Below are positions 25,840-29,181 of a stretch of DNA of 63,137 nucleotides, piece after piece. The position numbers and the translations under genes are program-made. How positions within the stretch are numbered: the stretch's first letter is position 1; every line of letters starts with the position of its first letter. The stretch is from contig CANQLJ010000006.1 of assembly GCA_947624685.1 (NCBI GenBank), positions 1 through 63,137 on the forward strand, read 5' to 3'. The notes beneath the pieces are model-generated. The model saw nothing but the letters and a program-made list of their open reading frames with translations, made no database searches and was not told the DNA's origin. The stretch is from Candidatus Gastranaerophilales bacterium (GTDB lineage Bacteria > Cyanobacteriota > Vampirovibrionia > Gastranaerophilales > Gastranaerophilaceae).

Positions 25840-27336
25840 TTAAGCATGGCTTTTTGCTTCAAGAACTTTTGCCCAATTTTGAAAACTTTGGTGGGAAGTG
25901 TTTTTTAAATTGTCTTGAGAAGGGTTTTGAATTGAATTTTGAGAAATATTTGGAGCGTTCTTTTTTTTGGACTTAAAGTTATTTTGAGGAATGTTTAGGG
26001 CATTCTTTTTTTGATGATTATATCTATATTGCGTCCAAAGCCTTGTTATAGCTGAAAGCGTAAAACCCATAAATATCAAAGAAAACAGATAAGGAACACC
26101 CGTTGTAATTGTCTTTTTCTTAATTAAATCTTTAAAGACCGTGTTTACATCTTGATTTTTCTCTTTGGCAAGTTTTCTTGCTAATTCCGGTAATTCTGTT
26201 CTTGTCGGAACACTTAGTGCGCCATCGGCACCTTTTTTTATAATATCTTTATATTTTTCATTTTTAGATAACGATTTAATAAAGCCTTTTTCAAATAATT
26301 CACTTCCAAAGATTGTATAGAATACGACCAAAGGCACCCTTGTCCAAACTTCATAAACATCCAATTTGCCTCTGTCTTTTGCCGCTTTAGAATATCCAAA
26401 AAGCCCCACTAGCGCAGTTAAGCCCAATTGTCCTTTTGAAAGCGCCAGTTTTCCGTTATTTGAAGCAAAGTCAAAGCTCAATTTATCCAATGTTTTAAAT
26501 AATTTTTCATTTTTTACTCCTAATGAATTTAAGCCTCTTGAAAGAGCTTTGCCCGGTTCAAGGATATTTTGAGCGAGATTTTGGGCTTTTGGCGATTTAT
26601 GACCAAATATTGCAAGAGCGCTTCCTGCTAAAACTCCCGCAGCTGAGATTATTGCAGCTTTTTTGAGCTGATTTTTAGAGCTTTTTTCAACTTGTTTTTG
26701 ATGTTCGGTATCCTCTTTTTCATTTTTTGCTTTATCTAAATTTGCGATATTATTAAAATTGCTCTTTTTAAAAGTTTTTAGAGTGAAAAGGTTTTTTGCA
26801 AAGCTTAAAGTATATTCGGCCACAGGAATCATCAAACACGCAAGGACAATACCCGCTTTAGTTGTTATGGCGCGGTTTTTAATTTGGGAAGGAATCTTAA
26901 GATTGCTTGTAATTTCTTTAACCGGTTTTGCAATAAGATTATTTACATCATTTTTGATGTTTTTTGGATGAAAGTTTTTAAAAATCAAATTCCGAAACAG
27001 TTTTTCACCCAATATCGGAGAGGCAAAATAGAATATAGCGGACTCAATAAATTCTAAAAAACTCATTTCGCAAAAGTCTTCTTTGCTTCTTGAAAAAATT
27101 GCCTTTGGAAACCAGTTTGTGGCCGTATCTTGGATGAATCTTGTGGAAGAAAGGTTTTCTTGAGATTTTATAAAAGTATTCGCTAAACCCATTGCGCCGT
27201 TTAGGGTTTTAAATAAAGCGTCATCCGCGCCTTTAAAAGATAAAGATTGCGAGTTTTTATCGCCGTTAATAGCTTTTTCGTTTAGTTTAGATTTTTTGTT
27301 AATGTTGTTTTTTAAATAATTTTCAATTCTAATCAT
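25840..27336 (-). CDS. Membrane protein of a three-member paralogue family, unknown function (member A)
   Basis: 498 residues. Seen: N-terminal SLSFKGADDA motif (residues 31-40); a block EFIESAIFYFASPILGEKLF matching the 'EF..gAIW.f.iP' block of the other two members; hydrophobic segments near 155-180, 215-235, 325-345 and 410-430; LVGLFGYSKAAKDRGKLDVY matching their 'DG...l.R...AR....e' block; a final membrane segment followed by a Tyr/Arg/Lys stretch. The C-terminal 60 residues are repetitive (KKNALNIPQNN, KKNAPNISQNS). No recognised domain. It lies downstream of a Met/Cys-rich small ORF and a strong terminator on the same strand. Confidence 0.7.
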   Translation of the reverse strand: MIRIENYLKNNINKKSKLNEKAINGDKNSQSLSFKGADDALFKTLNGAMGLANTFIKSQENLSSTRFIQDTATNWFPKAIFSRSKEDFCEMSFLEFIESAIFYFASPILGEKLFRNLIFKNFHPKNIKNDVNNLIAKPVKEITSNLKIPSQIKNRAITTKAGIVLACLMIPVAEYTLSFAKNLFTLKTFKKSNFNNIANLDKAKNEKEDTEHQKQVEKSSKNQLKKAAIISAAGVLAGSALAIFGHKSPKAQNLAQNILEPGKALSRGLNSLGVKNEKLFKTLDKLSFDFASNNGKLALSKGQLGLTALVGLFGYSKAAKDRGKLDVYEVWTRVPLVVFYTIFGSELFEKGFIKSLSKNEKYKDIIKKGADGALSVPTRTELPELARKLAKEKNQDVNTVFKDLIKKKTITTGVPYLFSLIFMGFTLSAITRLWTQYRYNHQKKNALNIPQNNFKSKKKNAPNISQNSIQNPSQDNLKNTSHQSFQNWAKVLEAKSHA

Positions 27337-27370: not shown

Positions 27371-27420
27371 AAAAACAGCCTTCCTTTTACTTTTAAAATC
27401 GTTTCAGGAAGGCTGTTTTT
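27371..27420. terminator. Strong bidirectional terminator between the Met/Cys peptide and member A
   Basis: 14-bp perfect stem AAAAACAGCCTTCC with GGAAGGCTGTTTTT (27371-27384 and 27407-27420), 22-base loop, T-tracts on both strands. On the minus strand it ends the Met/Cys peptide transcript or acts as a regulated stop before the 25840-27336 gene. Confidence 0.88.
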
Positions 27421-27439
27421 ATTTTATTATTTTATTTAT

Positions 27440-27592
27440 TTACCTTAAAAACCCTGCCCAAAACGACACGCACATCATTATGCACATCATGCACATCATT
27501 ATGCACATCATGCACATCATCATTTGCATCATTTGCATAATTGGCATTTTGGGCATACTCATTTCTTTTTGGTTCAAGGTTAAATTCATCAT
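27440..27592 (-). CDS. 50-residue methionine/cysteine-rich small protein
   Basis: A short ORF with a clear ribosome-binding site (AAGAAGGA just before tandem ATGs at 27592 and 27589). The peptide starts MMNLTLNQKEMSMPKMP, then runs through units of MMC/IMMC (five Cys spaced by two or three Met/Ile residues at positions 27-41) and ends VSFWAGFLR. About 22 of 50 residues are Met and 5 are Cys. The DNA shows 9-21 bp tandem repeats (GCACATCAT and similar). Possible roles, all inference: a soft-metal (copper) binding micro-protein, a membrane micro-protein, or a Met/Cys-sensing leader of the downstream gene. It has a TTGACA-based promoter region and a terminator, consistent with real expression. 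Confidence 0.6.
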   Translation of the reverse strand: MMNLTLNQKEMSMPKMPIMQMMQMMMCMMCIMMCMMCIMMCVSFWAGFLR

Positions 27593-27632: not shown

Positions 27633-27677
27633 TTTTGTCAATAGTATACAAAAAACATAAACGAGCTATTGACAAAA
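27633..27677. promoter_or_regulatory. Inverted repeat carrying two divergent -35 boxes
   Basis: TTTTGTCAATAG (27633-27644) and CTATTGACAAAA (27666-27677) are a perfect 12-bp inverted repeat with a 21-base centre. Each arm contains TTGACA reading outward. On the plus strand TTATAT follows after 17 bases (27692-27697). On the minus strand a TATAGC follows after 15 bases. The two outward transcripts encode the His-rich leader (plus) and the Met/Cys peptide (minus). Confidence 0.7.
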
Positions 27678-27726
27678 AATTTTGTTTAATGTTATATTTC
27701 AGATACTATCACAGAAGGAAAAATTA

Positions 27727-27816
27727 TGTTAAATATATCTAAAAAACAACATCATCATTTCCATATTGTCCTTAAAAAGACTGTGGAATTGATGTGCGGC
27801 AATTTTAGATATTAAA
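27727..27816 (+). CDS. 29-residue His-containing leader peptide
   Basis: AGAAGG (27713-27718) precedes an ATG opening a 29-codon ORF that begins MLNISKKQHHHFHIVLKK and ends CGNFRY. Four His codons fall in a run of five (27751-27765). The segment just after them, 27771-27785, is complementary to the 5' arm of the downstream terminator. Position, size and codon cluster are those of an attenuator leader peptide such as hisL, although the downstream gene is not a histidine gene. Confidence 0.65.
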
Positions 27817-27888
27817 ATCAAATTTAATTCAATTCTTTTAATTTCTTATTAAAAACGGTCTTTTTAAGGTTAAAGACCGCTTTTTAGT
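27771..27888 (+). promoter_or_regulatory. Transcription attenuator with mutually exclusive hairpins
   Basis: Terminator: CGGTCTTT (27857-27864), 8-base loop, AAAGACCG (27873-27880), then CTTTTTAG. Antiterminator: CCTTAAAAAGACTGT (27771-27785), inside the leader ORF, pairs over 15 positions (one G-U) with ACGGTCTTTTTAAGG (27856-27870), consuming the terminator's 5' arm and loop. The leader stop codon (27814-27816) lies 29 bases after the antiterminator strand, which differs from the classical his/trp layout. Confidence 0.75.
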
Positions 27889-27930
27889 GTTTTTGTAAAT
27901 TACTTTAAAAATTAAAAGATTGGAGAAAAA

Positions 27931-29181
27931 ATGAAACTTACATCAATTATATCGGCTATTGGCAACAACGACAGCATCTACCCGCTTCTTATAAGAGATT
28001 GCGGAATTGAAAACCCCACAAAGGTCGTAATGACTTATAAACAAAATAAAGCGGATAAAAATATCGCAAAAAACGCAACTCGAGAAAGAATAATAGATGA
28101 ATACATAACTTCCTCGATTTGGCTCGGGGGAATTCCTTTGGTTACTAAAATATGCGATAAACTAATTAAATCAAAAGGTTTTAACCCCGATATTTCAATT
28201 GAACTTTTAAAAGATAACAAAAACCAAAGCCTAAAAACAAATATCGAAAACTTTCGCTTTAAAGCTCCTAAAGAAGCAAATGATTTAATCAAAGTTCAAA
28301 ATAATCTATCCTGCTTTAAACAATTAAACACATTTAAGACAATCTCCTCTATTGTAATTCCGACAATAGCGATGGGGTTTATTTTACCTAAATTAAATTT
28401 CGCGCTCACAAGAAAAATTATGAAAAAACCCTCTAAAAACGATATTTCATTTAGAAATCAAATGACATTAGATGAATTTAAAAATAATACAAAAAGCCAA
28501 AATAATATTTCTTTTACCTCGCTTTCAACCGTTCAAAAAATGGCAATAACAGATGGGGGTTTGAGTATAGGCAGAGTCGCCTGCGCAAGAAACAAAAACG
28601 AAGCTTTTGATAACGGCGTCAAGATGGCGGGGATGATGTATTTAAACTACATCGCGCCAAAGCAGCTTGCAAAATTTCTAAATAAAATGTCGCAAATGAT
28701 TTTTAAAACCCAAGTAAATCTTGATTATAAAATTTTATGCGACGATGAATTTATTAAAAAAGTTAAAGAAAATGCAATATTGCTGCCAAACAAAACAGAC
28801 GAAAAAGAAATTTTGGATTTTATAGATAAAAATATCAATTCAACATTTGTCCAAAGCGCCAAAAAAATCAATCTCATAAAAACTCTCGACAATAACACTC
28901 GAGACCCGAGAAAATATGTCGATACAAATGAAATTGTAAAATTAAAAAATGATATTTATGAATTCATTAAAAACGCAAAAAACAGCAAAAACTTTGATTC
29001 ATTTATCAAAAAAGCAAGAGCAATTAAAGGGTTAAATATTTTGGCTAATATTGTAATAAGTTCGTTTTTGCTTGCTTTTGCGCTTCCTAAATTTCAATTT
29101 TTGTTAAGACAAATCGTAATAAAAAATAAATTTGAACCGGGCCTTGTGGATGATAACTATAAAAAGAGCAAAAAGCAATAG
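27931..29181 (+). CDS. Membrane protein of the paralogue family (member B), under attenuator control
   Basis: 416 residues, unknown function. Seen: N-terminal DEYITSSIWLGGIPLVTKIC; a first hydrophobic helix with MGFILPKLNFALTRKIM (about 145-165); two short motifs NDISFRNQ and NNISFTSL; TDGGLSIGRVACARNKNEAF; a second hydrophobic helix with LAFALPKFQFLLRQIV near the C-terminus (about 375-400). The GF/AxPKxxxxxR pattern after each helix points to an internal duplication. All blocks line up with member C at 49886-51217 and more weakly with member A. GGAG lies 7 bases before the ATG, 43 bases after the attenuator. Confidence 0.75.
   Translation: MKLTSIISAIGNNDSIYPLLIRDCGIENPTKVVMTYKQNKADKNIAKNATRERIIDEYITSSIWLGGIPLVTKICDKLIKSKGFNPDISIELLKDNKNQSLKTNIENFRFKAPKEANDLIKVQNNLSCFKQLNTFKTISSIVIPTIAMGFILPKLNFALTRKIMKKPSKNDISFRNQMTLDEFKNNTKSQNNISFTSLSTVQKMAITDGGLSIGRVACARNKNEAFDNGVKMAGMMYLNYIAPKQLAKFLNKMSQMIFKTQVNLDYKILCDDEFIKKVKENAILLPNKTDEKEILDFIDKNINSTFVQSAKKINLIKTLDNNTRDPRKYVDTNEIVKLKNDIYEFIKNAKNSKNFDSFIKKARAIKGLNILANIVISSFLLAFALPKFQFLLRQIVIKNKFEPGLVDDNYKKSKKQ

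Follow-up and report, generated by a model that had tools for sequence, protein, structure and literature searches.

The locus and its setting

The window, that is, the whole stretch of 63,137 nucleotides that was analysed, is contig C6 of a 2.0 Mb Candidatus Gastranaerophilales MAG that is 99% complete, and its nearest GTDB relatives are mostly titled Candidatus Gastranaerophilales MAGs from animal guts. Two attenuators share one intergenic region in divergent orientation, a His attenuator on the plus strand and a Met attenuator on the minus strand (27373-27589, -). The gene behind the His attenuator (27931-29181, +) encodes a 416-aa helical membrane protein that contains no histidine at all.

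The His leader ORF has the Shine-Dalgarno sequence GAAGGA at 27714-27719 (+) and encodes the peptide MLNISKKQHHHFHIVLKKTVELMCGNFRY at 27726-27815 (+), in which four His codons (CATCATCATTTCCAT) lie at 27750-27764. The antiterminator strand, strand 2 (CCTTAAAAAGACTGT, 27770-27784, +), forms 15 pairs with strand 3 (ACGGTCTTTTTAAGG, 27855-27869, +), which is common to antiterminator and terminator. The intrinsic terminator, a hairpin at 27856-27879 plus a T-run (27856-27887, +), has a core stem of 8 bp in which CGGTCTTT (27856-27863) pairs with AAAGACCG (27872-27879) across a loop of 8, followed by CTTTTTAG; the stem becomes longer when A/T pairs are counted. The RNA from 27702 to 27892 folds with z = -6.1 against shuffles, and 0/200 shuffles folded as well.

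The leader, antiterminator, terminator and gene had all been named in an earlier note, and all are present, with most of the coordinates given there one base too high. That note also proposed a promoter TTGACA-N17-TTATAT; the site is found instead as TTGACA-N18-TATATT at 27669-27698 (+), with 11/12 consensus matches. Promoter-like sites in the region occur at chance level (20 observed against a chance mean of 19.1), so that this pair is a possible promoter and no more than suggestive.

Conservation of the His leader

Orthologues of the regulated gene were found in 158 of 288 family genomes (E <= 1e-50, roughly 42-60% identity), and a profile search adds a few further genomes. A DNA search with the leader sequence returned only short fragments because the leader evolves too fast, and the protein search recovered relatives where the leader search did not. 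In all, 164 orthologous upstream regions were read, 151 of them distinct.

A short ORF with a cluster of 3-7 His is present in 164/164 of these upstream regions, and the His codons are retained in every lineage read. Since the leader was chosen by script as the ORF with the most His, which could introduce a bias, the same choice was applied to shuffled upstreams, and 0/151 of them gave an ORF with at least 3 His in 8 residues. The leaders, of which MNRFVKLFNKHHHFHIVLKG, MFTPSVKRHHHNHHHCH and MKNIVSRQFHHHHHSNLKRL are examples from relatives, are 14-29 aa long in a set of 111, and their histidine is encoded almost always by CAT (624/660). The His leader is thus shown by comparative sequence. One leader, L044 of genome G017, has its His run reduced to HHQQH and a hairpin followed by A instead of T, in a genome without hisD; it may be a translational-type or decaying attenuator.

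Elsewhere in the same genome, the other HHHxH sites lie in ordinary or repetitive frames, none of which is recognisable as a leader. Furthermore, no convincing His leader was found at 20 hisG/hisD loci of relatives, and hence an origin of the attenuator in the his genes is not indicated. Rfam gave no match for the window leader, including the His_leader covariance model even below threshold.

Alternative helices

The antiterminator in relatives has a median length of 14 bp and starts a median of 5 nt past the last His codon, while the leader stop lies at a median offset of 0 nt from the end of the antiterminator strand (158 scored leaders). Both distances are as in a classical attenuator. Of the upstreams, 6/164 gave no antiterminator/terminator pair by a simple finder. 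The pairing is specific to each genome, with an antiterminator score of 29.0 for own partners against 19.3 for partners swapped between genomes and 14.9 for shuffled ones. In a 17-sequence alignment, both sides change in 8/12 antiterminator pairs, and double-sided changes fill 27 cells against 9.8 in shuffles; the corresponding count for the terminator, which also covaries in relatives, together with the helix P0 described below is 29 cells against 10.8. Antiterminator and terminator are mutually exclusive structures backed by covariation, and the alternative helices, like the leader, are shown by comparison. Median duplex energies are -19.8 kcal/mol for the antiterminator and -10.6 kcal/mol for the terminator. 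If the His region of the window leader is treated as occupied, the fold of strands 2 and 3 including the loop reaches about -26 kcal/mol, compared with -16 for the terminator segment by itself.

The stop codon of the window leader lies 29 nt past the antiterminator strand, at the far end of the range, and this position had been raised in the earlier note as a caution against a classical attenuator. The median offset of 0 nt resolves it: the late stop is a local oddity, unusual for the group. It leaves strand 2 exposed behind a finishing ribosome, so that the window leader must rely on the 1:2 hairpin, which is weakly conserved (16.3 own vs 14.7 swapped).

A helix sequestering the Shine-Dalgarno sequence

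A further helix, P0, is supported by sequence, fold and covariation. Its 5' strand (27828-27844, +) precedes the terminator and pairs with 27909-27924, and its 3' strand (27909-27925, +) includes the Shine-Dalgarno GGAG of the regulated gene (27922-27925), most of which is covered by the pairing. P0 is nested with the terminator and incompatible with the antiterminator in the nested fold, and the full window leader folds more stably with terminator plus P0. Its covariation score is 20.2 for own partners vs 16.5 for swapped and 14.4 for shuffled ones, so that the helix too is shown by comparative sequence.

A hairpin with a T-run is found in 86/151 leaders, and about 40% have no clear T-run. 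In several genera (g40, g27), antiterminator and P0 are present and the T-run is missing; in g40 the anti-SD is ACUCCUUU instead of UUUCAAUUC, changed together with the SD context. Inferred from the sequence alone, leaders with P0 and without a T-run look like translational attenuators and the window leader like a double one, and control in the window is probably both transcriptional and translational.

The regulated protein

Searches of Pfam, NCBIfam and PDB sequences with the regulated protein were empty, so that by these searches the target gene is not a his biosynthesis gene, hisS or a known His transporter. An AlphaFold2 model is confident and all-helical (pLDDT 85.9, pTM 0.79). In fold searches with it, nothing rose above helical matches at chance level (Foldseek best E 0.5, VIA best Z 6.7), scores that are not meaningful for a helical model. 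The protein has two strongly hydrophobic segments, 141-159 and 367-385. An internal repeat, GFILPKLNFALTRK / AFALPKFQFLLRQI, is weak (hhalign P 0.0003, probability only 40%). The protein family is new, and the attenuator itself is of a known kind with a translational variant.

Histidine is nearly absent from the product throughout the family. Only 9 His occur in 39,099 residues of 94 unique orthologues (0.023%), against 1.76% over 90,497 aa of neighbouring ORFs and 0.2-1.8% in paralogues with other leaders; among neighbours of at least 300 aa, 0/124 ORFs lack His altogether. This near-total exclusion, shown by the comparison, exceeds the low cognate bias known for amino-acid biosynthetic enzymes (PMC4209129), which is a statistical tendency of enzymes, whereas the protein here is a membrane protein outside biosynthesis.

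Link to histidine auxotrophy

Neither hisG nor hisD was found in the genome of the window. The gene occurs without hisD in 153 of the 288 genomes and hisD without the gene in 76, while both are present in 5 and neither in 54; a more sensitive profile gives 162, 76, 5 and 45 in the same order. The exclusion is seen inside genera, namely g1 (gene 9 vs hisD 10, no overlap), g6 (10 vs 7, 3 with both) and g57 (1 vs 16, exclusive), and so a single ancient split does not account for the pattern. Mutual exclusion with hisD is thereby shown. A Fisher p of about 1e-27 for it ignores shared ancestry and is not readable as a probability.

The link of the gene to histidine auxotrophy is strong. With 45-54 genomes lacking both the gene and hisD and 5/288 carrying both, the gene is not strictly required, and its exclusion with hisD is not absolute. 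Outside the 288 set, G007 likewise combines hisG/hisD with the His-attenuated gene; its hisG and hisD lie close together on one contig (C9, 32253-34875), unlike in most other genomes tested, and may represent a reacquired his cluster. An amino-acid ABC binding protein (PF00497) occurs in 34/34 genomes tested regardless of His status, and could possibly import His. The absence of TrpA is non-discriminating, with no match over the cut-off in any genome of the window's genus.

The earlier note had missed helix P0, the Met attenuator on the opposite strand and the connection with auxotrophy. Its central claim, a His-codon attenuator before a membrane protein of unknown family, held by conservation and covariation and withstood the comparative part of the refuting conditions set there, with His codons in every lineage and the antiterminator pairing retained in nearly all lineages read.

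Sister systems with Met and Trp leaders

The divergent leader peptide is rich in Met and Cys (MMCMMCIMMC..., MMCMMCIMMCMMCIMMC, 27440-27589, -), and a Met-rich leader is conserved in L253-L256. Its antiterminator pairs 27466-27453 with 27412-27399, and its terminator lies at 27373-27418 (-). The gene under this control (25840-27336, -) encodes 498 aa with 5 Met. In its family the leaders are of Met or Trp type: the paralogues L257-L260, about 40-45% identical, carry Trp leaders (WW or WWW), with antiterminator and terminator as in the Met type. The His family shows no detectable homology to the Met/Trp family (hhalign probability 0.9%).

The Trp-leader proteins have 1 Trp in 1,702 residues (four proteins), and the Met-leader proteins 0.7-1.3% Met vs 2.2% (five proteins). 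The rule that the leader codon is the residue avoided in the product is thus followed in the His and Trp systems and in part in the Met system, with small samples for Trp and Met.

Other leaders were observed before paralogues of the His-controlled protein. One such paralogue in the window (51217-49889, -) has two tandem leaders at 51535-51425 and 51303-51232 (-), the first, MFIKLLNIIRVIARRTFSSFQRGLVYVPIERDEKRF, with a 14 bp antiterminator and a terminator, and the second, MKNSQNLIINQRYQMLMNLIWGL, directly before the gene. Just before distant paralogues across the order (L047-L054, L056-L058), a peptide ending in (M)NL(I/S/A/L)WGL and a stop codon is conserved, and in L047/L048 a segment within it can pair with a segment beside the SD (AUAACUCAAG/CUUGAGUUAU). 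The WGL peptide might be an arrest peptide or might couple translation; the products behind it show no clear depletion of any single residue. Upstream of the WGL leader in L047, L048 and L049, a short ORF MRIRKYQRRCFYTN (or similar) is followed by a terminator-like hairpin, and could be an Arg-type leader or the end of a small gene.

Comparison with known systems

The leader resembles the hisL-type His operon leader of enteric bacteria (Rfam His_leader) in its run of His codons, in its alternative antiterminator and terminator, and in a stop codon by strand 2 in most relatives. It differs in the lack of an Rfam match, in a target outside histidine synthesis that is found mostly in genomes without it, in the extra helix sequestering the gene's SD, and in its Gastranaerophilales host. 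Outside Proteobacteria, His leaders with several His codons and competing hairpins are likewise known from Firmicutes (PMC9413887; PMC2965389), where the targets (his operons, hisS, hisZ) are known his genes or aminoacyl-tRNA synthetases, whereas the target here is an unannotated protein family. In some attenuators an RBS-sequestering structure takes the terminator's place (PMC9413887). In Firmicutes and Actinobacteria, certain His auxotrophs retain a His transporter that is itself His-controlled (HisR or T-box; hisXYZ, yuiF; PMC9413887). The present case is alike in that an auxotroph keeps a His-responsive gene, which in those bacteria serves uptake; it differs in protein family and control mechanism, and transport is not shown here. 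No paper connecting Gastranaerophilales with such leaders was found in the literature searched.

Proposed mechanism

The reading favoured here is that a ribosome-mediated His attenuator controls a membrane protein by which His-auxotrophic gut bacteria likely obtain histidine. That regulation is exerted through the His codons is well supported and very likely, while stalling on uncharged tRNA-His and the expression response are inferred. When His-tRNA is ample, the ribosome would translate past the His codons as far as the leader stop and withhold strand 2 from pairing, so that strand 3 would pair with strand 4 to form the terminator, and any RNA escaping termination would have its Shine-Dalgarno sequence locked in P0. 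When His-tRNA is scarce, the ribosome would stall on the His codons immediately ahead of strand 2, which would then pair with strand 3; terminator and P0 would be blocked, and the gene would be transcribed and translated. The product would be makeable in His shortage because it contains almost no His.

That the protein acquires histidine, by import of His or His-peptides, is favoured by a modest margin only. Since no transporter family or fold was matched, this role is inferred from regulation, composition and distribution. The suggestion in the earlier note of a histidine-related protein gains weight from how little His the product contains and from the mutual exclusion with hisD.

Alternative explanations

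It remains possible, though less likely, that the attenuator is real and the protein is a His-starvation stress protein, acting in envelope remodelling, peptide release or dormancy and mainly needed by auxotrophs. In favour of this, transporter homology or fold is lacking and strongly hydrophobic segments number only two, a low count for a secondary transporter; moreover, regulation and His avoidance would look identical. Against it, exclusion with biosynthetic genes is predicted by a substitute supply route and not by a general stress role, and the Met or Trp leaders of another protein family of this order point to amino-acid-specific roles. A second alternative concerns the level of control, which might be mainly translational, the His leader exposing or hiding the gene's SD and the terminator being secondary or lost. 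The covariation of P0 and its inclusion of the SD, the g40 and g27 leaders with their altered anti-SD in g40, and the greater stability of the terminator-plus-P0 fold speak for it; the hairpin with a T-run in the window and in more than half of the distinct leaders speaks against it, and the two layers are not mutually exclusive. On balance, this alternative is the less likely one.

His-rich peptides can bind metals, and the leader peptide might accordingly sense Ni, Zn or Cu instead of tRNA-His charging, a reading that the earlier note had left open and that is not supported. The codon position is fixed relative to the antiterminator, the product avoids His, the gene tracks his gene loss, and the sister systems use Met or Trp runs; none of this follows from metal sensing, which is very unlikely and was set aside. 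Chance, in the form of a His-rich short ORF beside an ordinary terminator, could draw on the chance density of promoter-like sites in the region, but is all but excluded by conservation in every upstream region against none of the shuffles, together with covariation.

Implications

A physiological context, histidine starvation in auxotrophs, is given from sequence alone to an unannotated membrane family of a widespread, largely uncultured gut lineage. The family shows, in a natural and extreme form, how a protein can be cleared of the residue whose shortage switches its gene on, and the match between leader codon and avoided residue offers a route to substrate prediction for unknown genes. In a bolder reading, for which the evidence is evenly balanced, Gastranaerophilales possess hitherto undescribed proteins for acquiring amino acids. 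These would comprise no fewer than two families, one for His and one for Met/Trp, whose members are each controlled through an attenuator for the cognate amino acid and contain little or none of that residue, with the His member present where his biosynthesis was repeatedly lost. If this is true, the His member would represent a novel type of histidine importer.
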